DNA from: Mesorhizobium japonicum MAFF 303099 | Lineage (GTDB): Bacteria; Pseudomonadota; Alphaproteobacteria; Rhizobiales; Rhizobiaceae | Length of the DNA: 64,000 nt | Assembly: GCF_000009625.1 (NCBI RefSeq) | Contig: NC_002678.2 | Location: 4,248,001-4,312,000, forward strand | Direction of reading: 5' to 3' | In this document: in pieces, positions 49,993 through 64,000 of the stretch | Numbering within the stretch: the stretch's first letter is position 1 | How the letters are laid out: every line of letters starts with the position of its first letter | Translations under genes and position numbers: made by a program | The notes under the pieces: model-generated | Databases searched by the model: none | The model's input: the letters and a program-made list of their open reading frames with translations, nothing else | Told to the model about the DNA's origin: nothing

Positions 49993-50005
49993 AACGGTGG
50001 CTATC

Positions 50006-50022
50006 TATCGGAAAAACCGATA
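50006..50022 (+). terminator. Short hairpin after the methyltransferase gene
   Basis: TATCGG and CCGATA around AAAAA, 14 bp past the stop codon. No clear T-run follows, so this is a weak terminator candidate. Confidence 0.35.
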
Positions 50023-50203
50023 TCGACTTTCTGACAAATGAATTTGCGAAACCGGAATTTTCCAAGCACCTTCGGTTTCAGGGACCAAAGCCGCCAGCAG
50101 AGCGACATCAAGTCCACAGGACGAACTGATATGTTTTTCAGTCCGCGCGTGATCTGGCGACAACCGGAGCGGTTTCGGGGGCATGCGCCAAAATGGGAGA
50201 TCG

Positions 50204-51361
50204 ATGATGAATTCATTCCTGAAGTCATGCACGGCGCTGACGGTCGCGCTGACCTTCTCGGGTCAGGCCATCGCCCAGGTCAAGGAACTCGGCAAGGGCG
50301 AGGGCCAGGTCAACATCGTTGCCTGGCCGGGCTACATCGAGCGCGGCGAGACCGACAAGGGCTATGACTGGGTCACCGCCTTCGAGAAGGAGAGCGGCTG
50401 CAAGGTCAACGTCAAGACCGCCAACACCTCCGACGAGATGGTCTCGCTGATGAACGAGGGGGGCTTCGACCTCGTCACGGCTTCGGGCGATGCTTCGCTG
50501 CGCCTCGTCGCCGGCAAGCGCGTGCAGCCGATCAACACCGATCTCATCCCGAGCTGGAAGACGGTCGACGACCGGCTGAAGGACGCCCCCTGGTTCACCG
50601 TCGACAAGGTGCATTACGGCGTTCCTTACCAGTGGGGACCGAACATCCTGATGTACAACACCGAGGTGTTCAAGGAAGCGCCCAAGAGCTGGAACGTCGT
50701 CTTCGAGGAGATGAAGCTGCCGGACGGCAAGTCCAACAAGGGCCGCGTCCAGGCCTATGACGGGCCGATCCACATCGCCGATGCTGCCAACTATCTGATG
50801 TTCCATAAGCCGGAACTCGGCATCAAGGATCCCTACGAACTCAACGAAGACCAGTACAAGGCGGCGCTCGAACTGCTGCGCGTGCAGCGCACGCTGGTTG
50901 GCCGCTACTGGCATGATGCAGCCATCCAGGTCGACGATTTCCAGAATGAAGGTGTCGTCGCCTCCGGTTCGTGGCCGTATCAGGTCAACACGCTGGTCGC
51001 GGCCAAGAAGCCGGTTGCCTCGACCGTGCCGGAAGAAGGCGTCACCGGCTGGGCCGACACCACCATGATGGAAGCCGACGCGGCGCACCCGAACTGCGCC
51101 TATATGTGGCTCGAACATTCGCTGTCGCCGAAAGTGCAGGGTGATGTCTCGGCCTGGTTCGGATCGCTCCCCGTGGTGCCCGCCGCCTGCAAGGGCAACG
51201 AGCTCCTGACCGATGAAGGCTGCAAGACCAACGGCTACGACAATTTCGACAAGATCAAGTTCTGGAAGACGCCGGTCTCGAAATGCGCCACCCAGAACGA
51301 CCAGTGCGTGCCCTACTACCGCTGGGTGTCGGACTATATCGGCGTCATCGGCGGACGGTGA
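50204..51361 (+). CDS. ydcS: Polyamine/putrescine ABC transporter substrate-binding protein YdcS
   Basis: Periplasmic binding protein of 385 residues with a Sec signal peptide (NSFLKSCTALTVALTFSGQAIAQ). The mature domain has the bacterial solute-binding fold of PotD/YdcS (LVTASGDASLRLVAGKRVQP, YQWGPNILMYN). The following genes reproduce the E. coli ydcSTUV-patD order exactly, which supports a putrescine or polyamine ligand. GGGAG at 50195-50199 precedes two adjacent ATGs. The first, at 50204, is given. Confidence 0.9.
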   Translation: MMNSFLKSCTALTVALTFSGQAIAQVKELGKGEGQVNIVAWPGYIERGETDKGYDWVTAFEKESGCKVNVKTANTSDEMVSLMNEGGFDLVTASGDASLRLVAGKRVQPINTDLIPSWKTVDDRLKDAPWFTVDKVHYGVPYQWGPNILMYNTEVFKEAPKSWNVVFEEMKLPDGKSNKGRVQAYDGPIHIADAANYLMFHKPELGIKDPYELNEDQYKAALELLRVQRTLVGRYWHDAAIQVDDFQNEGVVASGSWPYQVNTLVAAKKPVASTVPEEGVTGWADTTMMEADAAHPNCAYMWLEHSLSPKVQGDVSAWFGSLPVVPAACKGNELLTDEGCKTNGYDNFDKIKFWKTPVSKCATQNDQCVPYYRWVSDYIGVIGGR

Positions 51362-51384
51362 TTCCGCTTCGCTGAGAACATAGC

Positions 51385-51495
51385 GCTGCCCCTCACCCTT
51401 ACCCTCTCCCCCGTGAAGAACGGGGAGAGGGGGGGTCGCCAGCGTTCCCCGTCACTATACGGGGAGAAGGTGCCGGCAGGCGGATGAGGGGCAGC
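51385..51495. repeat. MITE/REP-like element with 11-bp terminal inverted repeats
   Basis: A 111-bp element bounded by GCTGCCCCTCA (51385-51395) and its exact inverse TGAGGGGCAGC (51485-51495). Inside are CCTCTCCCCCGT/ACGGGGAGAGG arms and a second GGGGAGAAGG-type segment. Its end has the GGATGAGGGG sequence shared with the copy that the IS element interrupts near 55,820. It lies between ydcS and ydcT and could lower expression of the downstream genes relative to the binding protein. Confidence 0.75.
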
Positions 51496-51537
51496 ACGCC
51501 GCCTGAATTTGATGAGCCTGACAGATCAGGACAGCCC

Positions 51538-52536
51538 ATGACATCAGCCGTCTCCTTCCAGAAAGTCTCGCGCCATTTCGGCAGCGTGCGCGCGGTCGAC
51601 GCGGTCGACCTCGACATCGCGCCGGGCGAGTTCTTCGCCATGCTTGGGCCTTCCGGGTCCGGCAAGACGACATGCCTGCGCCTCATCGCCGGTTTCGAGC
51701 AGCCGACTTCGGGTTCGCTCTCGATCTTCGGCGAACGCGCCGAGGGCGTGCCGCCCTATCGCCGCAACGTCAACACTGTCTTCCAGGACTATGCGCTGTT
51801 CCCGCATCTCAATGTGCTTGATAACGTCGCTTATGGGCTGATGGTCAAGGGCGTCGGCAAGGCAGCGCGGCACAAGGCGGCCGAGGAAGCACTGTCGCTC
51901 GTCAGGTTGCCCGGCTACGGCGCCCGCCGCCCCGGCCAGCTTTCCGGCGGCCAGCGCCAGCGTGTCGCGCTCGCCCGCGCTCTGGTCAACCAGCCCAAGG
52001 TGCTGCTGCTCGACGAGCCGCTCGGCGCGCTCGACCTGAAGCTGCGCGAGAACATGCAGGAGGAGCTGAAATCGCTGCAGAAGGCGCTCGGCATCACCTT
52101 CGTCTTCGTCACCCATGACCAGGGCGAGGCGCTGTCGATGGCCGACCGCGTCGCCGTCTTCAACGACGGCAGGATCATGCAGATCGGCACGCCGGAGGAT
52201 ATCTATCAGCGGCCGAGAACCCGCTTCGTCGCCGATTTCGTCGGCTCCTCCAACGTGCTGCCGCCGGATTTCGTCCAGCGCTATTCCGGCCAGCATCGCT
52301 GGGGCAGTCTGCGCCCTGAATCCATTCGCGTCAGCCGCGCGGCAACCGGCGAAGGCGTCGCCGCCCGCCTCGTCTCGACCAACTATCTCGGCGCCACCAC
52401 TAGGCTGGCGCTCGATGCCGACGGATTGAAGCTGCACGCCGTGGTCCCGGCTGGCACGGTGCTGCCTGCCGAGGGCGAAGCGGTGGTGCTCACCTTCAAC
52501 CGCGAGCACCTGCATCTGATGGATGAGCCGGCATGA
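51538..52536 (+). CDS. ydcT: Polyamine ABC transporter ATP-binding protein YdcT
   Basis: ATPase subunit of 332 residues. Walker A GPSGSGKTT, signature LSGGQRQR and Walker B LLLDEPLGALD are intact. The N-terminus FHxVSRxFGSVRAVDAVDL-type is close to E. coli YdcT, and a C-terminal TOBE-like regulatory domain begins near residue 240. It follows the repeat element and overlaps ydcU by 4 bp (ATGA). Confidence 0.93.
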   Translation: MTSAVSFQKVSRHFGSVRAVDAVDLDIAPGEFFAMLGPSGSGKTTCLRLIAGFEQPTSGSLSIFGERAEGVPPYRRNVNTVFQDYALFPHLNVLDNVAYGLMVKGVGKAARHKAAEEALSLVRLPGYGARRPGQLSGGQRQRVALARALVNQPKVLLLDEPLGALDLKLRENMQEELKSLQKALGITFVFVTHDQGEALSMADRVAVFNDGRIMQIGTPEDIYQRPRTRFVADFVGSSNVLPPDFVQRYSGQHRWGSLRPESIRVSRAATGEGVAARLVSTNYLGATTRLALDADGLKLHAVVPAGTVLPAEGEAVVLTFNREHLHLMDEPA

Positions 52537-53501
52537 GCGTCGACGTCACCATGCCGCGCGCCACGGCCCCCGCTATCCTGCCCGGCAGCGGCGGCATGCG
52601 CGGCGCGCTGTCGGACCTGTTCTGGCGTCGGCCGCAACTGCTTCTGCTGCTCATGCTCTTGCCGCCGGTGCTGTGGCTCGGCATCGTCTATATCGGCTCG
52701 CTCTTCGCGCTGCTGGCGCAGAGCTTTTTCTCCATCGACGAGTTCTCCGGCCTCATCAACCGCCAGTTCACGCTGAAGACCTATGGCGACCTGTTGCAGG
52801 CCGCCAATCTCGACATCATCCTGCGCACGGTCACCATGGCGGCCCTCGTCACCGTGGCCTCGGCCATCGTCGCCTTTCCGATCGCCTACTACGCCGCGCG
52901 CTATGCGCGTGGCCGCTGGAAGGCGCTGTTCTATCTCGGCGTCATGCTGCCACTGTGGTCGAGCTATCTGGTCAAGATCTATGCCTGGAAGCTGATCCTG
53001 GCCAAGGAAGGTATCCTCACCTGGCTCTTCGGCAAACTGCATCTGCAATGGCTGCTCGATGCCTGGCTGTCGCTGCCGGTTGTCGGCGGCAACTCGCTGT
53101 CGGTGTCGTTCACCGGCACCTTCATCGTCTTCGTCTATGTCTGGCTGCCCTTCATGATCTTGCCGGTACAGGCCGCCCTCGAGCGCGTGCCCGGCAATCT
53201 GGTCGAAGCCTCCTCCGATCTCGGCGCTTCGCCGGGGCAGACCTTCCGCAACGTGCTGTTCCCGCTGGCCCTGCCCGGCATTGTCGCCGGCTCGATCTTC
53301 ACCTTCTCGCTGACATTGGGCGACTACATCATCCCGCAGATCATCGGCACGTCGCGCCTGTTCATCGGCCAGGCCGTCTATTCGCAGCAGGGCACCGCCG
53401 GCAACATCCCGCTCGCCGCCGCCTTCACCGTGGTGCCCATCGTCATCATGGGCTTCTACCTCTGGGGCGCCAAGCGCATGGGGGCCTTCGATGCGCTCTG
53501 A
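52533..53501 (+). CDS. ydcU: Polyamine ABC transporter permease YdcU
   Basis: Permease subunit of 322 residues with about six membrane helices. The cytoplasmic EAA loop with the conserved Gly is [21 protein letters not shown]. It overlaps both the ATPase gene before it (4 bp) and the second permease after it (11 bp), consistent with coupled synthesis of the complex. Confidence 0.93.
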
Positions 53502-54306
53502 CCGTGGTCAATCGGCTCCGCTCGGCCTGAAGATCGCCGCCGCCTGCGGCCTGCTCTTCCTGCATTTGCCGATCCTGCTGATCTTCGTCTACGCCTTCAC
53601 CACCGAGGAGAAGAGCTTCGTCTGGCCGCCGCCCGGGCTGACCACGCAATGGTTCGCCGTCACCTGGAACCGGCCTGACGTCTGGGAGGCGCTGTCGCTG
53701 TCGGTGCGCGTCGCCGCCATCTCGACGACGATTGCGCTGGTGCTCGGCACGCTGTGCGCCGCCGCGGTGTCACGGACGAAATTTTTCGGCCGCGAGACCA
53801 TCTCGCTGCTGGTCATCCTGCCCATCGCGCTGCCCGGTATCATCACCGGCATCGCGCTGCGCTCGGCCTTTTCGCTCGCCGACATCCCCTTTTCGTTCTG
53901 GACGATCGTGCTCGGCCACGCCACTTTCTGCGTGGTCGTCGTCTACAACAATGCGGTCGCCCGTTTCCGCCGCACATCCGGTTCGATGATCGAGGCCTCG
54001 ATGGATCTCGGCGCCGATGGTTTTCAGACTTTCCGCCATGTCGTGCTGCCCAACATCGCCACCGCGCTGCTTGCCGGCGGCATGCTGGCCTTCGCTTTGT
54101 CTTTCGACGAAGTCATCGTCACCACCTTCACCGCCGGCCAGCAGCAGACCGTGCCGATCTGGATGCTGGAGGAACTGATCCGCCCGCGCCAGCGCCCGGT
54201 CACCAATGTCGTGGCCATGGTCGTCGTGCTGGTGACGCTGCTGCCCATCCTGTTTGCCTATTACCTCACCCGCGACGGCGACCAAATCGCCGGTTCGGGC
54301 AAATAA
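53491..54306 (+). CDS. ydcV: Polyamine ABC transporter permease YdcV
   Basis: Second permease subunit, 271 residues, about six helices. The EAA loop is [21 protein letters not shown]. It forms the membrane heterodimer with YdcU. The start overlaps the end of ydcU by 11 bp. Confidence 0.93.
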
Positions 54307-54332
54307 CGTCAGTTCGTAAGGGAGAGACGTCC

Positions 54333-55760
54333 ATGGACACCCAGATGCTGATCGGCTCGAAATTCGAGAACGGCGCCGAGACCGAGGAGTCGATCCTCAA
54401 TCCGAAGACCGGGGCAACCATCCTCAATCTGCCCGAAGCCAGCCAGGCGCAGATCGAGGCCGCGGTGGCAGCCGCCGAAAAAGCGTTCGTCTCGTGGTCG
54501 CGCACGACGCCGGCGCAGCGCTCTGGTTATCTCCTCAAGATCGCCGACCGCATCGAGGCCGAGGCCAAGGAGTTCGCCGCTCTCGAGGCGCTGAACTGCG
54601 GCAAGCCGATCAATTCCGTGCTCAATGACGAGATTCCGGCCATCGTCGACTGCTACCGCTTCTTCGCCGGCGCGGTCCGTTCGATGCCGGGCGTCGTCGC
54701 CGGCGAATATCTGCCCGGCCACACCTCGATGGTGCGGCGCGACCCGATCGGCATCGTCGCCTCGATCGCGCCCTGGAACTACCCGCTGATGATGATGGCC
54801 TGGAAGCTGGCGCCGGCGATCGGCGGCGGCAACACCGTCGTCTTCAAGCCGTCGGAGCAGACGCCGCTGACGGCGCTGAGGCTGGCCAGGATCCTGGCCG
54901 AAATCCTCCCCGAAGGTGTGGTCAATGTCGTGCTCGGCCGCGGCGACAGCGTCGGCAACGCGCTGATCAACCATCCCAAGGTCAACATGATCTCGATCAC
55001 CGGCGACGTCGCCACCGGCAAGAAGGTGCTGCAGGCGGCCGCCAAATCGGTCAAGCGCACACATCTCGAACTCGGCGGCAAGGCCCCGGTCATCGTCTTC
55101 GACGACGCCGACCTTGGTGCGGTGGTCAACGGCCTGCGCGCCTTCGGCTATTACAATGCCGGTCAGGACTGCACCGCCGCCTGCCGCATCTATGCCGGCA
55201 AGAAGATCTACGACAAGCTCGTCGCCGATCTGTCCTCGGCGGTCTCGACCATCAAGTACAACCAGCCGGACGACACCGAAAACGAGATCGGCCCGCTGAT
55301 CTCGCGCCGCCAGCGCGACCGCGTGTCGAGCTTCGTCGAACGCGCCTCTGAATTGAAGCACATCGAGATCACCACCGGCGGCAGGCCGGGCGAGGGCACC
55401 GGCTTCTACTACCAGCCGACCGTCGTCGCCGGCGCGCTGCAGGAGGACGAAATCGTGCGCCGCGAGGTGTTCGGCCCGGTCGTCTCGATCACCCGTTTCA
55501 CCGAAGTCGACGAAGCGGTGAACTGGGCCAACGATAGTGACTACGGCCTGGCGTCATCGGTTTGGACCAAGGACGTCTCACGCGCCATGGCGACGGCGGC
55601 ACGCCTGCAATATGGCTGCACGTGGATCAACACCCATTTCATGCTGACCAACGAGATGCCGCATGGCGGGTTGAAACAGTCCGGCTACGGCAAGGATATG
55701 TCGCTCTATGCGCTGGAAGACTATACCGCCGTGCGGCATGTCATGGTGGCGCACGCATAG
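54333..55760 (+). CDS. patD: Gamma-aminobutyraldehyde dehydrogenase
   Basis: NAD-dependent aldehyde dehydrogenase of 475 residues, the same length as E. coli PatD (YdcW), which oxidises 4-aminobutanal from putrescine to GABA. The catalytic Glu is in HLELGGKAP and the catalytic Cys in [11 protein letters not shown]. Cofactor contacts are in APWNYPLMM. It lies 26 bp after ydcV with GGGAGAG before the start, so it closes the uptake operon and links polyamine import to degradation. Betaine-aldehyde activity cannot be excluded. Confidence 0.92.
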
Positions 55761-55769
55761 CACGCCTGT

Positions 55770-55823
55770 CCTTCTCCCCTTGCGGGAGAAGGTGGATCGG
55801 CGCGCAGCGCCGAGCCGGATGAG
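55770..55823. repeat. Left part of an intergenic repeat interrupted by the IS110 element
   Basis: CCTTCTCCC/GGGAGAAGG arms (55770-55792), then a GC-rich segment ending GCCGGATGAG at 55823. The rest of the repeat (GGGTGTTCCAG) resumes at 56970 on the far side of the element, consistent with insertion between the two parts. Confidence 0.75.
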
Positions 55824-55838
55824 CGACTATCTGAGGTG

Positions 55839-56774
55839 TCAAGTTGCATTTGCGAATTCGTTACGCGCGTCGCGTGCTTTTGCATTGAGAATGACGAGCA
55901 GCTTGCGGGCGAGCGCAATGCGGATGACCATTTTCTCCTTTCCGGCAGTCTGCAACCGTTGCTTGAAAGCTGCCAGATGCGGATCATATTTGGCAACGAT
56001 GCTGGCAACGAGAAAGAGGACGCCGCGCGGCCCTGCCCGACCGCCGCGCACTGGTCTTCGACCGCTGCGCTTGCCACTGTCATTGGCGATCGGCGCCAGG
56101 CCGGCCAACTTGGCGATGGCCTTGTTGGAGAGGATGCCGATCTCCGGCAACTGCGCCATCAGCCGCGCCACGGTGCGAGAGGCAACACCCTTGAGCGAGC
56201 GGAAGGCTCGGTCGAGGCATGCCCACAGCGGATCGTCATCGATGAGCGTGGCGATCTCACCTTCGAGCCTGCGGCTCTGGCGCGCAAGCAGCGCGATCAC
56301 TTCATCGAGGCTGGCGATAGTTTCGGCGTCGGCGGTGCTCTTGCGCTGCTTTTGAATGGTGAGATCTCCTCCCACCTGGGAAAGCCGCGCAACCAGCGCC
56401 TTGAGCCGCTGCTGGGCCGCGCTCGGCGGCGGCGTCGGCTTGAGCCGCTTGACGGCACCATAACGGGCAATCACGGCGGCATCGATTCTGTCGGTCTTCT
56501 CCAGGAAACCCATTGCCTCGGCGAAGTAGCGAACGCTCCTCGCGTTGGCCATGCCGCAGGGTTGGCCCATCTCCCACAAGAGCAGGAAGGCCAGCCGTTC
56601 GTAGCCGCCACTGGCCTCCATGATGACGAGTTCGACATCATGGTTCTGACACCAGGCGGCCAGATCGGCGATGCCTGCCGCATCGTTGGCGAAGCGGTTT
56701 GCCGCTCCCATCGGCTCGATATGGGCGTCGAGCCAGTCTTTCGAAATATCTATTCCACAGAGGGTCGTGTTCAC
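55839..56774 (-). CDS. IS110-family transposase (bridge recombinase)
   Basis: Recombinase of 311 residues from the GTG at 56774, which follows AGGCAGG. The frame opens earlier at a TTG (56807). The N-terminal RuvC-like domain has the DEDD residues Asp9 (CGIDISKD), Glu53 (IMEASGGYE), Asp95 and Asp98 (EKTDRIDA). The C-terminal Transposase_20-type domain has the candidate catalytic Ser at about 233 (IANDSGKRSG). All catalytic residues are present, so the protein is likely active. It would act with the bridge RNA encoded just upstream. Confidence 0.93.
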   Translation of the reverse strand: MNTTLCGIDISKDWLDAHIEPMGAANRFANDAAGIADLAAWCQNHDVELVIMEASGGYERLAFLLLWEMGQPCGMANARSVRYFAEAMGFLEKTDRIDAAVIARYGAVKRLKPTPPPSAAQQRLKALVARLSQVGGDLTIQKQRKSTADAETIASLDEVIALLARQSRRLEGEIATLIDDDPLWACLDRAFRSLKGVASRTVARLMAQLPEIGILSNKAIAKLAGLAPIANDSGKRSGRRPVRGGRAGPRGVLFLVASIVAKYDPHLAAFKQRLQTAGKEKMVIRIALARKLLVILNAKARDARNEFANAT

Positions 56775-56784
56775 GGTAACCTGC

Positions 56785-56955
56785 CTTGTGCGTGCGATTG
56801 GAGCCAAGCGACTATTCGGTCGTGCGTGACGAAGACGAAGATCCCAGGCTCATCCACGGTTGTAGCCGCAGGGGTGTCGGGCGACTTCGCCAAGCCTCGA
56901 ATCGGATGGCCGTCCGGTTCGAGGCTCAGTCGCTTCCATCGCACAAAGTCTCCTC
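56785..56955 (-). ncRNA. Predicted bridge RNA of the IS110 element
   Basis: The non-coding left end reads, in RNA order: a stem-loop (GCGACT/AGTCGC and AGCCTCGAA/TTCGAGGCT arms, 56933 down to 56881), a left target guide ACACCCCT (56877-56870), a small hairpin, a right target guide GGATGAG (56855-56849), a left donor guide ATAGTCGCT (56815-56807) and a right donor guide ACAAG (56789-56785). These match the sequences at the two element junctions with the polarity known for IS621. The ends are approximate. Confidence 0.75.
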
Positions 56956-56967
56956 CGTGCAGATACA

Positions 56968-56980
56968 AGGGGTGTTCCAG
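56968..56980. repeat. Right part of the interrupted intergenic repeat
   Basis: AGGGGTGTTCCAG continues the repeat that stops at 55823. The first two bases are the core dinucleotide duplicated at the left side. Confidence 0.65.
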
Positions 56981-57004
56981 CTTGGCGCCAGCTTACCCCT
57001 TCCC

Positions 57005-57049
57005 CGGATTGCCAACCGATCTGTGAGGGACAAATCGGTTGGCAATCCG
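57005..57049. repeat. Perfect 16-bp-arm hairpin
   Basis: CGGATTGCCAACCGAT (57005-57020) and its exact inverse (57034-57049) around a 13-base loop, just outside the right end of the IS110 element and 39 bp from the stop of the next minus-strand gene. It could end that transcript or be another intergenic repeat unit. Confidence 0.7.
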
Positions 57050-57088
57050 ACCTCTGCCACAGGGGGGAGGTAAGACCGTCGCGCATCG

Positions 57089-57403
57089 TTACTCGACGAT
57101 GCGATAGATGTTCCACAGGCTGGTGCCTGACACGACATAGGGCTCCATCTCCTTGCCCCATTTGGCGTGTGCGTCGATCTTGCTGATCTTGGCGAACATC
57201 GCCTCCAGCTGGGCCAGGCTTTCGACCTGATGGTGCGACTCGACCGTCGCTTCGCGTGCGCCGATCGATCCGGTCATGATCTGGAACTTCAGCTCGGCGA
57301 GGCCGACCTGCGAGCCGATCTCGCGTTCCCATTTCTTCAACAGGTCGAGCACGGTCTGTTTATGCCCGAACTTCGCGTCGATCTGCCATCTGGCGCTGAA
57401 CAT
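57089..57403 (-). CDS. Conserved hypothetical protein
   Basis: Soluble protein of 104 residues that I do not recognise. It begins FSARWQIDAKFGHKQTVLDLLKKWEREIG and ends in SGTSLWNIYRIVE. The short alpha/beta pattern is reminiscent of dimeric alpha-beta barrel (NIPSNAP/ABM-like) proteins, but this is only an impression. ATG 57403 follows GGGAGGAACC. Last of a run of three small minus-strand genes. Confidence 0.75.
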   Translation of the reverse strand: MFSARWQIDAKFGHKQTVLDLLKKWEREIGSQVGLAELKFQIMTGSIGAREATVESHHQVESLAQLEAMFAKISKIDAHAKWGKEMEPYVVSGTSLWNIYRIVE

Positions 57404-57440
57404 GTTGGTTCCTCCCAAGGTTGAGTTGGCGGCTGCTTGC

Positions 57441-57803
57441 CTATTCGTCCCAGGCTTGCACGACGGTCTGCCGCGCGATCCGCCCGTTCTTCAGCTCCAG
57501 CATCGCGGCGGCGAACACTTTCGTGCCGTCCGGATAGGCGCAGGCCTGGGTGAAGGCGAGGCTGTCGCCGTCGGCGATCGTGGTGTCGACCTTGTGGGTC
57601 ATCGCCCGGCTGCAGATGTCGTCCCAGAAGATGGCGATCGCCGCGCGCCCGCGGACTTCGCGCGGCTTGCTTGGCGGGTTGTTGCGGTCGATCACCCGCA
57701 CCAACGCGTCGTCGGCATAGAAGCTCGACAGCATCTTGCCATCGCGGCTCTCGATCGCCTTCTTGATCGCCGCGCCATCCACGACTTGAGTCTTGGTCAG
57801 CAT
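57441..57803 (-). CDS. SnoaL/NTF2-like protein
   Basis: Protein of 120 residues with the cone-shaped NTF2/SnoaL fold pattern (AIKKAIESRDGKMLSSFYADDALVRVI, then a C-terminal KNGRIARQTVVQAWDE). Members bind or isomerise small hydrophobic molecules. The start at 57803 is supported by GGAGG; an ATG four codons earlier would bury that signal. Lies between a hypothetical gene and a carboxymuconolactone-decarboxylase-like gene on the same strand. Confidence 0.83.
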   Translation of the reverse strand: MLTKTQVVDGAAIKKAIESRDGKMLSSFYADDALVRVIDRNNPPSKPREVRGRAAIAIFWDDICSRAMTHKVDTTIADGDSLAFTQACAYPDGTKVFAAAMLELKNGRIARQTVVQAWDE

Positions 57804-57887
57804 CTTGTCCTCCATGTGCCCGTCTTGACGATCGGGCGGTTGATATTCAGTAGGGGCTGTCCGACGCTCGCCGCCAGGCAGGAATTT

Positions 57888-58367
57888 TCACTGCGACTTC
57901 GCCTTGACGGCAGCGAAGACGTCGTCGGTCTGCTTCTTGAACGTGGCGAGATCGACCTGGCTGCCATTGAGCATCGTCGACCAATGGCGCACGATTGCCG
58001 CCATCGCGATCGTCTCCTTGATCTCCTCGTCGCTCGCGCCGTTGAGCTTGGCGGCCTCGGTATGGAAATAGATGCAGTACTGGCAGGGTATCTGCGAGGC
58101 CACCGCAAGGCCCATCAGTTCCTTGGTCTTGCCGTCCAGAGCGGTTTTCGGGTTGAGCTGGACGCCCTTGATCTCGGCCCAGGCGCCGGCGATGGCGACG
58201 TCAGGCAGTGTCTTGAACATGTCCGGCACCGAGCCGAGCGTCGCCTGGATGTCCTTGTAGGCGGCTGTCGCCGACGCATCCTCGGCCTTTGCGGGAGAGA
58301 TCGTGAGCAGCGCGCCAATCCCTGCCGCGACCACAAATGATCTGACATTCAGCTTTGACTTGAGCAT
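57888..58367 (-). CDS. Exported carboxymuconolactone decarboxylase/AhpD-like protein
   Basis: Protein of 159 residues with a Sec signal peptide (VRSFVVAAGIGALLTISPAKAEDA, cleavage near residue 29). The mature part is an AhpD-fold domain with CQYC and the following His (IPCQYCIYFHTEAAKLNGA), the redox-active CxxC...H motif of AhpD-like peroxidase partners. Export makes a periplasmic antioxidant or thiol-redox role more likely than protocatechuate metabolism. Adjacent to the hybrid LuxR gene. Confidence 0.88.
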   Translation of the reverse strand: MLKSKLNVRSFVVAAGIGALLTISPAKAEDASATAAYKDIQATLGSVPDMFKTLPDVAIAGAWAEIKGVQLNPKTALDGKTKELMGLAVASQIPCQYCIYFHTEAAKLNGASDEEIKETIAMAAIVRHWSTMLNGSQVDLATFKKQTDDVFAAVKAKSQ

Positions 58368-58475
58368 TTCATCCTCCGTTCGCAGTGCCCTTCCGGCGAT
58401 ATCCGCCTGGCCTGCATGGGGGAATTGATAGCGCTTACATCCGTCTGGCCGCTTCGCCCGAAAGCGCCATGGCTC

Positions 58476-60029
58476 TCATGGCCCGTCCGGGCCAGTGTGT
58501 CGGACCGAGAATACTGCCGCCGCCGCTCGCGACGGCAGGTCGAGCTTGAGCAATATGTTGGCGACGTGGCGCTTGACCGTGTGTTCGCTCAGCCTGAGCT
58601 CGGCTGCAATCGCGGCATTGCTCTTGCCGTCGGCAATCAGGCTCACCACCTCGCTTTCCCTCGCCGTCAGCACGGCCGGTTCGGTCGTTTTGGTCCTGAC
58701 GCGGCAGTCAGGCTCCAGGTGCTGTTCCGACATTGCCCGCACCAGCGCCATCGGCTCGTCCAGATCGTCCAGCGTGATCCGGCTGGCGTCTTCGAAATGC
58801 AGGCCTGAGCCGGTTGCCAGATCCGCGACCAGCCGCGACGCCAGGATATCGCTCCGGCTGGCGTGCGCGGCGAGCTGCATCGTCACGCGGGCCGTCAACC
58901 CCACTGGCGGCCCGCGCAGTTCGATCTCCCCGACATGCACGCCCTGCGCGCTGGCCACGCCGATCCCTTGAGCTGCCTCGCGCAGCGCCGCTGCACAGCG
59001 TATCGCGCGCGCCGGCCCATCGAAGCGCGAAATCATCATCTCGCCCTGCGTGCCCAGCGCTCGGCCGCCATGGCGCCCGACCAGCAACCGCCAGGTTTCC
59101 TGGAAGCGCTCGCTGCGCTCGCTCCACATACGGTCGCCCATCCGCGTCGTGTCGTAGATGCGCGTCACCAGAAGTGCCGCCAGCACACGGTCCGCTTCGG
59201 CGACGGCGCGCGTGCCGGTCAGGAACTCCTCGATCAGGTCGGCGACCCGGTCGACATCGCCGGTCCAGATCGGATGGTCACGACCCGGAATCTCGACCAG
59301 TCGCGCATTCGGGATTTTCTTGGCCAGGAAGCGGCTGGCGTCGGGATCGACCCGCGCATCGTTGCGGCGATGGATCAGCAGAGTCGGGGCACTGATCGCC
59401 GCCAGCACACCACGCACATCGATTTCCGCATTCATTCGCGCCAGTGCCGCCGCTGCCGTCGGGCTCGCCGACAGCCGCTCGAATCGCGCCCACCACTGGG
59501 TGAAATGCGCGTCGTCGACCCGGCCCGGCGCGAAATTCGGCAAGGTGGCACCGGTGCCCCAGGCCGTCTCGGCCGTGGCGATAAAGGCGTTGAGGCGTTC
59601 GGGCGGCATCACCCATTTGTGGAAATGCGCATATCCACCATAGAGCGCCAGCGCGCGCGTCCGCTCGGGATAGGTGGCGGCGAACAGCATGGCCATTGGC
59701 GCGCCTTCCGAAGCGCCAAGCAGGGCAGCACGACCGCTGCCGGCGGCGTCCATCACCGCGCGCACATCGTCCATACGCGTTTCCAGACTGGGTAGGTTGT
59801 GCGCATCGACACGGTCGGAAAGGCCGGTGCCGCGCTTGTCGAACAGGATCAGCCGCGAGAATGCCGACAGCCGTCTCAAGAGCCTTGTATAGCCTTCGTC
59901 TTCCCAATGCAGGTCGAGATTGGAAATGAAGCCCGGCACGAAGACAAGATCAAGCGAACCCTGGCCGACCACCTGATAGGCGATCCGCGCCTCGCCACTG
60001 AGGGCATATCGGGTCTCGATCGGCCTCAC
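58476..60029 (-). CDS. Hybrid regulator: alpha/beta hydrolase, cyclase-like domain and LuxR helix-turn-helix
   Basis: Protein of 517 residues. Residues about 1-270 are an alpha/beta hydrolase with nucleophile Ser in LGASEGAP, Asp in RRNDARVDPDA and His in PGRDHPIW. About 290-430 is a degenerate class III nucleotide-cyclase-like segment (ALGTQGEMMISRFDGPARAI). The C-terminus is a LuxR DNA-binding domain (LTARESEVVSLIADGKSNAAIAAELRLSEHTVKRHVANIL). The GTG at 60029 after GGAAG is preferred over the longer frame to 60101. Expected to be a cytoplasmic regulator of nearby genes. Its ligand is unknown. Confidence 0.9.
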   Translation of the reverse strand: MRPIETRYALSGEARIAYQVVGQGSLDLVFVPGFISNLDLHWEDEGYTRLLRRLSAFSRLILFDKRGTGLSDRVDAHNLPSLETRMDDVRAVMDAAGSGRAALLGASEGAPMAMLFAATYPERTRALALYGGYAHFHKWVMPPERLNAFIATAETAWGTGATLPNFAPGRVDDAHFTQWWARFERLSASPTAAAALARMNAEIDVRGVLAAISAPTLLIHRRNDARVDPDASRFLAKKIPNARLVEIPGRDHPIWTGDVDRVADLIEEFLTGTRAVAEADRVLAALLVTRIYDTTRMGDRMWSERSERFQETWRLLVGRHGGRALGTQGEMMISRFDGPARAIRCAAALREAAQGIGVASAQGVHVGEIELRGPPVGLTARVTMQLAAHASRSDILASRLVADLATGSGLHFEDASRITLDDLDEPMALVRAMSEQHLEPDCRVRTKTTEPAVLTARESEVVSLIADGKSNAAIAAELRLSEHTVKRHVANILLKLDLPSRAAAAVFSVRHTGPDGP

Positions 60030-60143
60030 GAGTTTCTTCCGCCCGGCCTGACGACTTCTGATCGTCAACCATAGCAGAGCCGCTTCGATAGGGCAGCTCA
60101 AACTTTAGCGAAGGTGAATGTATGTCCGGACCGCCCGCTGCGG

Positions 60144-60452
60144 CTACTTTTGCGACGCGGCGACGTCTGCCGGGGAGGGGGTGAGCCCGAGCTTGAGATC
60201 GGCCTCGGCCGGCGTGATCGGCCGCCTGATCCTGGCCGATGCAGCCACGACGAGTTCGTCGAAGCCTTCGCCGCTATCCAGCAGTTCGAAGAACTGCCGC
60301 CGCATCCTGGGTTCCCAGAATTTGTTGATGTGCTCGGCGACACCGGCAACACCTTCCTCGCGCGACTTGGAATGGAAGAAGGCCGCGATTTGGTTGGCCA
60401 TGCGCACCAGCTTTTCGCTGGTGCTCGTGATATGGTCTTCGTCATGCGACAT
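60144..60452 (-). CDS. fdsD: NAD-dependent formate dehydrogenase delta subunit
   Basis: Small subunit of 102 residues with the FdsD pattern (EKLVRMANQIAAFFHSKSREEGVAGVAEHINKFWEPRMRRQF). It completes soluble molybdenum formate dehydrogenases of the FdsGBACD type. Its start overlaps the end of fdhD by 11 bp. The ATG at 60452 is chosen over an open extension to 60497. Confidence 0.93.
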   Translation of the reverse strand: MSHDEDHITSTSEKLVRMANQIAAFFHSKSREEGVAGVAEHINKFWEPRMRRQFFELLDSGEGFDELVVAASARIRRPITPAEADLKLGLTPSPADVAASQK

Positions 60453-61272
60453 GCTGGGCAACTCCCGAAACCACCCGGTCGGGGTGGGTGAAAACATCGA
60501 AATCCTCGCCGCGCACCAGCGCCACCAGCGTCATGCCGGCCTCATCGGCGGTGCGGATGGCAAGCGCGGTCGGCGCCGAGACGGCGATGATGAAGGCCGA
60601 GCCGATCGCCGCCGTCTTCTGCACCATTTCGACCGACACGCGCGACGTCACCACGACGGCGCCCGAAGCACCGTCGATGCCGGCTTTGGCCAACGCCCCG
60701 GCCAGCTTGTCCAGCGCATTGTGGCGGCCGACATCCTCGCGCGCCATCACGACGCCCTTGCCGGGAATATAGAAGCCGGCCGCATGCACCGCTCCGGTCT
60801 CGGTGTGAAGCGGCTGCACCTTGGACAAAAGCTTGACCGAACGGACGATGTCGTCGGCATCAAGCGTAAGTTTTGACGCACCAACGGCATCGACGGAGCG
60901 CATTGCTTCCTCGATGGATTCAATGCCGCACAGCCCGCAACCAACCGGCCCGGCAAGCCTGCGCCGCCGCGCCTCGAAGCGTGTATTGGCCTGATCCTTC
61001 AGCCGGATCTGGATATCGATGCCGGCGCCATGGTCCTCGACCTCGATCGCCTCGACCTCTTGCGGGTCGGCAATGATGCCTTCCGTCAGCGAGAAGCCGA
61101 GCGCGAAATCCTCGAAGTCGGCGGGGCTCGCCATCATCACCGCATGCGTGGTTCCGGCAAAGGAAAACGCTACCGGCGTCTCCTCCGGCACCATGCGGTT
61201 GGCAACGGCCGCGCCGCTGGCGCGGTGCGCCAGCCGCGATATCTCAGTCGTTGCTTTGCGGCGCGCGGCCAC
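60442..61272 (-). CDS. fdhD: Formate dehydrogenase accessory sulfurtransferase FdhD
   Basis: Accessory protein of 276 residues that transfers sulfur to the molybdenum cofactor of formate dehydrogenase. It has the CGLCG motif with the sulfur-accepting cysteines (PVGCGLCGIES), and VAREDVGRHNALDKL, the family signature. The GTG start is 2 bp after the fdsA stop. Equivalent to fdsC in fds operons. Confidence 0.96.
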   Translation of the reverse strand: MAARRKATTEISRLAHRASGAAVANRMVPEETPVAFSFAGTTHAVMMASPADFEDFALGFSLTEGIIADPQEVEAIEVEDHGAGIDIQIRLKDQANTRFEARRRRLAGPVGCGLCGIESIEEAMRSVDAVGASKLTLDADDIVRSVKLLSKVQPLHTETGAVHAAGFYIPGKGVVMAREDVGRHNALDKLAGALAKAGIDGASGAVVVTSRVSVEMVQKTAAIGSAFIIAVSAPTALAIRTADEAGMTLVALVRGEDFDVFTHPDRVVSGVAQHVA

Positions 61273-61274
61273 AG

Positions 61275-64000
61275 CTACTCCGCCGCCTGCAGCGAGGCGA
61301 TGCGGCGGCTGTTCCTCGCCTGCTCGTCATACTCGCGCTGCCAATCCGACGGGCCGTTGGAGGCGCCGACCTGCACTGCCGTCACCTTGTACTCCGGACA
61401 GTTGGTCGCCCAGTCCGAGAAGTCGGTGGTGATGACGTTGGCCTGCGTGTCCGGATGGTGGAAGGTGGTGTAGACCACACCCGGCGACACCCGGTCGGTG
61501 ATCAGCGCCCGCAGCGTCGTCTCGCCCGAGCGGCTGGTCAGCCGCACCCAGTCGCCATCGCGCAGGCCACGGTTTTCGGCATCGTGCGGGTGGATCTCCA
61601 GCCGGTCTTCCGAGTGCCACATGACGTTGTCGGTGCGCCGCGTCTGCGCGCCGACATTGTACTGGCTGAGGATGCGGCCGGTGGTCAAAAGCAGCGGGAA
61701 GCGCGGCCCGGTCCTCTCGTCCGTCGCCACATATTCGGTGCGGATGAACTTGCCCTTGCCGCGCACGAAACCGTCGATATGCATGATCGGCGTTCCGAGC
61801 GGCGCCTTCTCGTTGCACGGCCATTGCACCGATCCGACGCGGTCGAGCAGCTCGAAGGAGACATTGGCGAAGCTCGGCGTCGTCTGGGCAATCTCGTCCA
61901 TGATCTGCGAGGGATGCGTGTAGTTCCAGTCGAGCCCGATCGCACGGGCAAGCTCCTGCGTCGCCTCCCAGTCGGCATAGCGCGCCTTCGGTTCCAGCAC
62001 CTTGCGCACCATGTTGATGCGGCGCTCCGCATTGGTGAAGGTGCCGTCCTTTTCCAGGAAGGTCGAGCCGGGCAGGAAGACATGCGCGTAGTTCGCCGTC
62101 TCGTTGAGGAAGAGATCGTGCACGACGACGCATTCCATGGCGGCGAGACCGCCGGCGACATGCTTGGTGTCAGGATCGGACTGCAGAATGTCCTCGCCCT
62201 GGATGTAGATGCCCTTGAAGGAGCCGTCGACGGCGGCGTCCAGCATGTTGGGGATGCGCAGGCCGGGTTCGTCGTCCAGCTTCACGCCCCACAGGCTCTC
62301 ATAGATGTCGCGCACGGCTTCGCCGGAGATGTGGCGATAGCCGGGCAGTTCGTGCGGGAAGGAACCCATGTCGCACGAGCCCTGGACGTTGTTCTGGCCA
62401 CGCAGCGGGTTCACGCCGACGCCCGGCCGGCCGATATTGCCGGTGGCCATTGCCAGGTTGGCGATCGCCATCACCGTGGTCGAGCCCTGGCTGTGCTCGG
62501 TGACGCCGAGGCCGTAATAGATCGCGCCATTGCCGCCCTTGGCGTAGAGCCGCGCGGCGCCTCGGATCAGATCCGGGTCGACGCCGGAAAGCTTGCCGAC
62601 GGTCTCGGGGCTGTTCTCCGGCAAGGCGACGAAGGAGGCCCAGTCCTGGAACTCCGTCCAGTCGCAACGTTCGCGGATGAAGGCTTCGTCGAAAAGCCCT
62701 TCGGTGACGATGACATGCGCCAGCGACGTCAGCACCGCCACGTTGGTGCCGGGCTTCAGCGGCAGGTGATAGTCGGCCTCGATATGCGCCGACTTGACCA
62801 TCTCGGTGCGGCGCGGATCGAGCACGATCAGCTTGGCGCCCTGGCGCAGCCGCTTCTTTAGCCGCGAGGCGAACACCGGATGGGCGGAAACCGGATTGGC
62901 GCCGATGACGACGGCGACGTCGGTGAATTCGACCGAGTCGAAATCCTGCGTGCCGGCCGAGGTGCCGTAGGTCTGGCCGAGCCCGTAGCCGGTCGGCGAA
63001 TGGCAGACGCGGGCGCAGGTGTCGACATTGTTGTTGCGGAAACCCTGCCGCACCAGCTTCTGGACGAGATAGGTCTCCTCATTCGTGCAGCGCGAAGAGG
63101 TGATGCCGCCGATCGAGGTGCGGCCGTACTGATACTGGATCCGGCGGAATTCCTTGGCCGTATGGGCGATCGCCTCTTCCCAGCTCACTTCGCGCCACGG
63201 ATCGGAGATCTTCTCGCGGATCATCGGCGACAGGATGCGGTCCTTGTGGGTAGCGTAGCCATAGGCGAAACGGCCCTTGACGCAGCTATGGCCGTGGTTC
63301 GCCTTGCCGTCCTTGTAAGGCATCATGCGGATGACTTCGTCGTCCTTCACCTCGGCCTTGAACGAGCAGCCGACGCCGCAATAGGCGCAAGTGGTGACGG
63401 CCGAGCGTTCCGGCATGCCCTTCTCGAGCACCGTCTTCTCGCGCAGCGCGTCGGTCGGGCAGGCCTGCACGCAGGCGCCGCAGGACACGCATTCGGAAGC
63501 GATGAAATCCTCATGCATGCCGGCGACCATGCGCGATTCGAAACCGCGGCCCTCGATGGTCAGCGCGAAGGTGCCCTGCACCTCCTCGCAAGCCCGCACG
63601 CAGCGCGAGCAGACGATGCACTGCGCCGGATCATAGGTGAAATAGGGATTGGATTCGTCGCGGGCGATGTAGTCGACCGCCAGCGAGCCATGGCCGGGCG
63701 CCACGCCGTCTTCCTGCTTGACGTGGTTGCGGCCCTCGACGCCATAGCGGTTCTCGGTCAGGCCGACCGACTTCGCCACCGTGTCGAATTCGCTGGCGCC
63801 GGTGCCGGCCTTCTCGTTCCAGCCGGTCGGATGGTCGGAGACGTAAAGCTCCATGACGCCGCGGCGAATGGCGTCGAGCCGGTCGGACTGCGTGCGCACC
63901 ACCATGCCTTCACCGACCGGCGTCGTGCAGGAGGCCGGCGTGCCGCCGCGGCCTTCGATCTCGACCAGGCAGACGCGGCAGGAGCCGAAGGAGTCCAGCA
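61275..64000 (-). CDS. fdsA: NAD-dependent formate dehydrogenase alpha subunit (5' end cut by window)
   Basis: Molybdenum-containing catalytic subunit that oxidises formate to CO2. About 908 codons are present and the frame continues past the right edge. The edge carries part of the N-terminal 2Fe-2S domain (SFGSCRVCLVEIE). Two 4Fe-4S ferredoxin motifs follow (CIVCSRCVRAC and CVSCGACVQAC), then the 4Fe-4S near the active site (CAYCGVGC). The catalytic Cys is in ARVCHSPTG, not selenocysteine. The C-terminal molybdopterin dinucleotide-binding domain is complete. An internal ATG at 63905 is not the true start. It transfers electrons to the FdsB/FdsG subunits expected just outside the window. Confidence 0.96.
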   Translation of the reverse strand, partial: LDSFGSCRVCLVEIEGRGGTPASCTTPVGEGMVVRTQSDRLDAIRRGVMELYVSDHPTGWNEKAGTGASEFDTVAKSVGLTENRYGVEGRNHVKQEDGVAPGHGSLAVDYIARDESNPYFTYDPAQCIVCSRCVRACEEVQGTFALTIEGRGFESRMVAGMHEDFIASECVSCGACVQACPTDALREKTVLEKGMPERSAVTTCAYCGVGCSFKAEVKDDEVIRMMPYKDGKANHGHSCVKGRFAYGYATHKDRILSPMIREKISDPWREVSWEEAIAHTAKEFRRIQYQYGRTSIGGITSSRCTNEETYLVQKLVRQGFRNNNVDTCARVCHSPTGYGLGQTYGTSAGTQDFDSVEFTDVAVVIGANPVSAHPVFASRLKKRLRQGAKLIVLDPRRTEMVKSAHIEADYHLPLKPGTNVAVLTSLAHVIVTEGLFDEAFIRERCDWTEFQDWASFVALPENSPETVGKLSGVDPDLIRGAARLYAKGGNGAIYYGLGVTEHSQGSTTVMAIANLAMATGNIGRPGVGVNPLRGQNNVQGSCDMGSFPHELPGYRHISGEAVRDIYESLWGVKLDDEPGLRIPNMLDAAVDGSFKGIYIQGEDILQSDPDTKHVAGGLAAMECVVVHDLFLNETANYAHVFLPGSTFLEKDGTFTNAERRINMVRKVLEPKARYADWEATQELARAIGLDWNYTHPSQIMDEIAQTTPSFANVSFELLDRVGSVQWPCNEKAPLGTPIMHIDGFVRGKGKFIRTEYVATDERTGPRFPLLLTTGRILSQYNVGAQTRRTDNVMWHSEDRLEIHPHDAENRGLRDGDWVRLTSRSGETTLRALITDRVSPGVVYTTFHHPDTQANVITTDFSDWATNCPEYKVTAVQVGASNGPSDWQREYDEQARNSRRIASLQAAE

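Follow-up and report, generated by a model that had tools for sequence, protein, structure and literature searches.

The window analysed here is a 64,000-nucleotide stretch of the Mesorhizobium japonicum MAFF 303099 genome, to which coordinates refer unless stated otherwise. It contains an insertion sequence flanked by two genes that converge on it: on one side a plus-strand gene ending at 55760, which from its translation we take to encode an aldehyde-dehydrogenase-like product, and on the other side a short minus-strand gene ending at 57089. The element and its flanks comprise the following features.

55822..56969, minus strand: IS110-group insertion sequence, 1,148 bp including the CT core at both ends
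55839..56774, minus strand: DEDD/serine recombinase (transposase) of 311 amino acids with a probable GTG start
56970..56975, minus strand: left target ACACCC, from the flanks of the own-genome copies
55817..55821, minus strand: right target CATCC, from the flanks of the own-genome copies
55770..55821, minus strand: right-hand portion of the split palindromic repeat (CATCCGGCTCGG...AAGGGGAGAAGG)

The left end measures 195 nt up to the GTG codon, the recombinase gene has 311 codons, and 17 nt of right end follow the stop codon. The IS110 group, as opposed to IS1111, is laid out in this way, with a short right end and a long left end in which the RNA lies ahead of the gene. The earlier note had described a complete IS110/IS621-type element at 55822..56969, in agreement with the IS110 domains, the fixed ends and the four identical copies described below. 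Judged by these features, the element is a complete IS110-group insertion sequence, of a family that is already known.

The recombinase matches the Pfam domains DEDD_Tnp_IS110 (PF01548) and Transposase_20 (PF02371) above their curated cut-offs. A phmmer search against the PDB returned only two distinct solved chains, IS621 (PDB entry 8wt6; E = 1.4e-26 over residues 5-294), which is thus a remote relative, and ISCro4 (PDB entry 9t56; E = 2.4e-24), a homologue to which the element is likened by protein alone. In the alignment to IS621 the catalytic D, E, D and D and the C-terminal serine are retained (D8, E52, D94, D97 and S232, with the start residue left out of the numbering). The protein search gave 5,051 relatives at E = 1e-30 among 7,999 scored candidates, and all named relatives among the best 120 of the 5,051 are termed IS110 family transposase or transposase.

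Four copies of the element, 100% identical over 1,148 bp and with different flanks, are found in the M. japonicum genome (7,596,297 bases in three contigs). The element was thus probably active recently. All four read CACCC-CT...CT-CATCC. The base before CACCC is an A in three copies and a G in one (L004, GCACCC), so that only CACCC-CT-CATCC is common to all four. The joined flanks of the window's element were compared with 11 loci of related genomes (L187-L197), seven of which span the crossing point (all except L189, L191, L193 and L194). Both L188 and L192 read CACCCCTCATCCG here, without element or duplication, and contain the uninterrupted sequence CACCCCTCATCC with a single CT. This sequence is near-identical in L187 (one base fewer), L190 and L195 (one base different each) and L197 (one base more); L196 is without 17 bases at the crossing point. 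The four identical copies with different flanks together with the uninterrupted sites in relatives fix the ends of the element, and these sites are as expected if recombination uses a shared CT core and duplicates no target sequence. A sub-terminal inverted repeat of 6 bp (TATCTG/CAGATA, found by eye) flanks the donor junction, intermediate in length between the 2-3 bp reported for the IS110 group and the 7-17 bp for IS1111 (PMC11208160).

The left end contains four words that correspond to the two halves of the target and the two ends of the element.

56870..56877, minus strand: left target guide ACACCCCT, equal to the left target at 56968-56975
56849..56855, minus strand: right target guide GGATGAG, reverse complement of CTCATCC at 55817-55823
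56807..56815, minus strand: left donor guide ATAGTCGCT, equal to the right end of the element at 55822-55830
56785..56789, minus strand: right donor guide ACAAG, reverse complement of the left-end CTTGT at 56965-56969

All four segments had been placed at these positions in the earlier note and are exact on the minus strand. When the left end (178 nt, the first 20 nt being omitted) was resampled 200,000 times by a first-order model, ACACCCCT occurred in 584 cases, GGATGAG in 2,829, ATAGTCGCT in 38 and ACAAG in 20,122; all four together did not occur once. The donor guides thus match the ends of their own element, as in known bridge-RNA systems. Among copies from this and related genomes, the left donor guide fits its own right end at nine of nine positions in 30 of 39 cases and at eight of nine in eight, and the match is broken in one. 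The right donor guide hardly varies among relatives.

The words lie within a predicted structured RNA consisting of a 5' stem-loop and two further stem-loops with internal loops.

56772..56954, minus strand: predicted bridge RNA of the left end, a structure with covariation, its 5' end placed provisionally by a -10-like box
56892..56927, minus strand: 5' stem-loop of the predicted bridge RNA, with 12 of 15 pairs changed on both sides
56834..56891, minus strand: target-binding stem-loop, with 97.5-98.8% of cells paired in the outer stems and 4 of 11 pairs changed on both sides
56772..56828, minus strand: donor-binding stem-loop, with 83.8% of cells paired in the inner hairpin and 2 of 4 pairs changed on both sides

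The target words are found in the first of the two loops and the donor words in the second, so that the order and polarity proposed earlier, those of IS621, hold. Across 20 left ends (distinct sequences picked from 44), 93.9% of the 820 cells are paired, which answers positively whether the left end has a conserved structure. Changes on both sides affect 18 of the 41 pairs, 12 of them in the 5' stem-loop, four in the target outer stem and two in the donor inner hairpin. Doubly changed cells number 88, compared with 23.4 in shuffles (0/500 as high). The 5' stem-loop and the target-loop stem are therefore the best-supported parts. The inner hairpin of the target loop is paired in 81.3% of cells with no pair changed on both sides, and the donor outer stem carries no covariation signal because it is nearly invariant. 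Sliding the partner columns by 1-3 positions lowers pairing to 23-47%, a control that favours the drawn structure since this was drawn partly from the same sequences. The fold of the single sequence is moderately better than those of its shuffles (z = -2.16; 5/200 as good). A scan of 50000-64000 against Rfam gave no match to a bridge-RNA family; a weak SNORA57 match at 51332-51465 (E = 0.57) was taken as chance. The pairing of the left-end CTTGT with ACAAG proposed by RNAalifold was not adopted as RNA structure: CTTGT precedes the likely start of the RNA, so that the pairing is that of the donor guide with the element end.

A structured left end could also be no more than a transposase-mRNA leader or a region under antisense regulation, folded for the control of expression, much as the transposase of ISPpu9 is reported to be controlled by small RNAs and 5'-UTR structure (PMC8450116). 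Such a function does not predict that words in the loops match the target and both element ends, and it is compatible with guiding rather than exclusive of it. We therefore give this explanation hardly any weight and return to the left end as a bridge RNA, which predicts that the guides vary together with the insertion sites.

Some DNA match to the element, often short, is present in 67 of 146 same-genus genomes including its own, and 12 genomes besides its own contain a full-length match at 75-97% identity. The sample consists of 44 left ends with flanks, representing 15 guide types, and for the right side of 39 loci with 13 guide types. In this sample, L105 and L152 are the same element (Rhizobium aethiopicum). 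L055, L056 and L057 have the same left flank and are probably a single old insertion that several species have inherited. Most of the further loci L063-L074 and L116-L144 are outside the counts. No new left end suitable for use came from the family-wide search; the class-wide search contributed L180, while L181 has no end matching the pattern. Two partial structures were seen alongside: a copy matching the first 670 bp only, with the right guide GGGTGAG, in seven related genomes (L013-L018 and L021), to which L055-L057 belong, and at L042 429-500 an additional, incomplete left end in tandem ahead of the full element, beside an N in the assembly.

The sites of the other copies largely match their own guides. 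The right guide matches five of five bases in 34 of 39 loci, or 33 of 38 if the R. aethiopicum element is counted once. The exceptions are L049 and L115 (three bases), L151 and L153 (four) and L059 (none), the last of which is a broken copy with a mis-picked right end. Averaged over guide types, the right guide matches its target at 4.29 of 5 positions, compared with 3.27 when guides are permuted (2/200,000 as good; 13 guide types and 39 loci, nothing dropped). For the left guide these values are 3.31 of 4 and 2.83 (154/200,000 as good; 15 guide types and 44 loci, nothing dropped), a weaker result than on the right. An earlier curated set that omitted L039, L047, L049, L056, L057, L059 and L105 agrees with the full-set result. 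On the left, the three core-adjacent bases match in 38 of 44 loci, four in 27 and all six in six; misses within three bases of the core occur in L037, L039 (where the site is shifted by one), L048, L056, L108 and L151. Per position, the match over loci is 0.90-0.97 at five right positions and 0.00 at the sixth, and 0.98, 0.93, 0.95, 0.68, 0.50 and 0.20 at left positions -1 to -6. Consequently, the fit is sharp over five bases for the right guide and extends over about three or four for the left. The target guides thus co-vary with the insertion sites.

Two clades account for many of these loci. Clade A, with guides ACACCC and GGATGAG, has CATCC on the right in all 11 loci with a right end, and its 12 left targets are ACACCC in six and GCACCC in three, with L037, L039 and L040 departing more. 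Clade B (75% DNA identity) has guides TACCAC (TACCCC in L048) and GGGAGAG; of its 12 loci with a right end, 11 (all but L049) have the right target CTCCC. The left target is CCAC or ACAC, and 11 curated loci match the left guide of the clade at only three or four of six positions. Seven of 12 clade B copies have ATAG at the right end where the guide has ACAG. In the recombinase tree, clades A and B are supported at 99/97 and 100/100, and their sisterhood is weak (87/63). L044 dropped out of this tree owing to an early stop; for L114, L116, L139 and L143 the longest reading frame was used, L115 is over-long, and from the resulting long branches no claim is drawn.

If the recombinase protein rather than the RNA were to read the palindromic target, the guide-like words would be target remnants or chance. 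Recombinase lineage and target are in fact partly confounded, clades A and B differing in both, and L151, which carries GGATGAG at a CATTC site, is a plain counter-case to guiding. We know of no bridge RNA for those IS elements of other families that insert into REP sequences. Insertion of such elements there has also been reported (PMC1525189). Against a protein reader, the words are present in the expected loops in the expected order and polarity, and they change with the target in several lineages: GAATGAG with CATTC (L150), AGGTGAG with CACCT (L106 and L107), GGGTGAG with CACCC (L108-L112 and L180; five copies in one genome and one in another) and GGGAGAG with CTCCC. In particular, L150 belongs to a 99/99 clade of four Rhizobium elements, another member of which, L152, has GGATGAG at CATCC. 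A protein reader is thus very unlikely, and guiding by the loop words is preferred.

The targets themselves are edges of genomic repeats. The clade A repeat reads CACCCCTCATCCGTC-hairpin-CCACCTTCTCCC and the clade B repeat CCCC-A/T-CTCCGTC-hairpin-CCACCTCTCCCCC. Clade B, with its different guides, is inserted at another edge of a related palindrome; the idea that both clades target one identical repeat was rejected, as the flanks show related but distinct repeats. Across the Mesorhizobium-group genomes G000, G037, G044, G117 and G135, perfect sites number 8 to 73 for the A type and 3 to 70 for the B type.

Since the targets are repeats of which the number differs between genomes, the co-variation might only mirror the repeats that each host happens to contain. 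Free perfect sites (CACCCCTCATCCG for A and CCACCTCTCCCCC for B) were counted in four genomes, all of which contain both types: 8 A and 8 B in the M. japonicum genome, 12 and 70 in G135, 37 and 35 in G037 and 73 and 3 in G117. The copies with A guides are all in A sites (four in M. japonicum and two in G135) and those with B guides are all in B sites (three each in G037 and G117). G117 has its three copies at the much rarer B type, and G135 has its two at the rarer A type. A draw by site availability across the four genomes gives a product of 8.4e-8, with copies treated as independent and with two B copies included whose site is one base off the B 13-mer; these are L045 (G037) and L050 (G117), which have ACAC and not CCAC on the left and would fail the B pattern. 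Repeat content as the sole cause has next to no probability, and site choice by the guides is retained.

A second IS110 lineage, with 34% protein identity to the first, is present outside the window in the same genome (L141 486-1634, corresponding to M. japonicum C1:3310912-3312060). It is located 38 bp from copy L002, head to head, in the facing palindrome. Its guides are TCACCC and GGATGAG and its target is CACCC-CT-CATCC; the other copy of this lineage (98%, C1:3407810) is likewise at CACCC-CT-CATCC. The left-end pattern was matched in three of seven full or near-full copies, and the third of these, L209, has the right guide AGGTGAG at a CATCT site (four of five matched). The left ends of both lineages align over 124 of 160 columns (gapped) with a score of 109, compared with at most 75.5 in 200 shuffles. 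Because they are alignable beyond the guides, the guide words common to both lineages could be inherited or could have converged.

From the sequence, the evidence consists of the ends, recombinase homology, guide words, co-variation, compensatory changes in the RNA and uninterrupted sites without duplication. On this basis, we are highly confident that this is a complete IS110-group element, that two target and two donor guides are contained in a predicted bridge RNA of its left end, and that it likely undergoes RNA-guided recombination at a CT core into CACCC-CT-CATCC, where a palindromic repeat of rhizobia has its edge.

Four further short features bear on how the element might work.

55838..55843, minus strand: -35-like CTTGAC, which overlaps the stop codon and lies in the right end 14 nt ahead of the core
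56961..56966, minus strand: -10-like GTATCT of the left end, assigned on sequence
56847..56848, minus strand: target-loop handshake guide position (CC), assigned by the IS621 rule
56783..56784, minus strand: donor-loop handshake guide position (GC), assigned by the IS621 rule

Joining of the ends gives CTTGAC-17 nt-GTATCT, and only on joining would the boxes meet. CTTGAC has the same distance of 14 nt to the core in 38 of 39 right ends, although the pattern by which those ends were identified fixes this spacing. An excised circle would thus bring the two boxes to 17 nt apart, and together they might form a promoter for the bridge RNA and the recombinase. The first loop of the RNA would then pair with the target and the second with the joined element ends, and the recombinase would exchange strands at CT as IS621 does. 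The C following the right target guide can pair with the G that is the last donor base before the core, and the G following the right donor guide can pair with the C that is the last target base. These are the handshake pairings described for IS621 (PMC11208158). As these bases hardly vary among relatives, the handshake reading is simply consistent with them.

The resemblance to IS621 of Escherichia coli extends to the DEDD plus serine recombinase and the left-end RNA, predicted here, with its target loop followed by a donor loop (PMC11208160). It includes the left guide resembling the top strand and the right guide complementary to it, the CT core, the absence of target duplication, the REP-type target and the promoter-like boxes split between the ends (PMC11208160, PMC11208158). 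Moreover, the left-end CTTGTAT of the element equals IS621 donor positions 8-14 (PMC11208158). The right-donor pairing of IS621 is incomplete here, with a C opposite the A at donor position 13. Besides the remote recombinase, the elements differ in that the target here is a rhizobial palindrome and in that the right target guide reaches five bases past the core in most lineages, whereas the natural IS621 guide pairs two (PMC11208160, PMC11208158). Longer right target guides are reported for some orthologues, and bridge RNAs were predicted in 85.7% of the IS110-group elements examined there (PMC11208160). The seekRNAs of IS1111/IS110 elements (ISEc11 and ISEc21) are similar in that a non-coding RNA beside the transposase guides targeting and a promoter forms in the circle, the boxes here being sequence matches; the IS1111 type differs in its mostly downstream RNA and longer sub-terminal repeats, and ISEc21 in a target inside other IS genes that is not a REP (PMC11187229).

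Insertion of IS110 elements into REP sequences was described in 2006, including ISRm19 of Sinorhizobium meliloti, a rhizobial IS110-family element in REP sequences in four of four cases, to which the present element is likened by description (PMC1525189). Our plasmid search gave three records at E = 1e-40, none of them named ISRm19. A literature search that reached a minority of subscription journals found no publication on this element and no paper joining bridge RNA, IS110 and Rhizobium. The element is apparently new and unstudied within a known kind.

More tentatively, and as a proposal that may well be wrong, rhizobial IS110 elements could have been repeatedly re-aimed by loop words alone onto edges of one palindromic repeat family: clade A onto the left edge, clade B onto the right edge and the second lineage, with the same words, 38 bp from a clade A copy. 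Distant bridge RNAs would then converge on these repeats as common safe harbours, with the right guide rather than the left as the main reader.

The finding leaves the known mechanism unchanged. It adds a compact bridge-RNA recombinase (~311 amino acids) for which target and donor guides can be read from the sequence, together with a natural two-clade swap in which related enzymes have different loop words and different sites. These properties make the element a good candidate for studying the evolution of guides and which guide positions matter, and the enzyme a possible tool for rhizobia.
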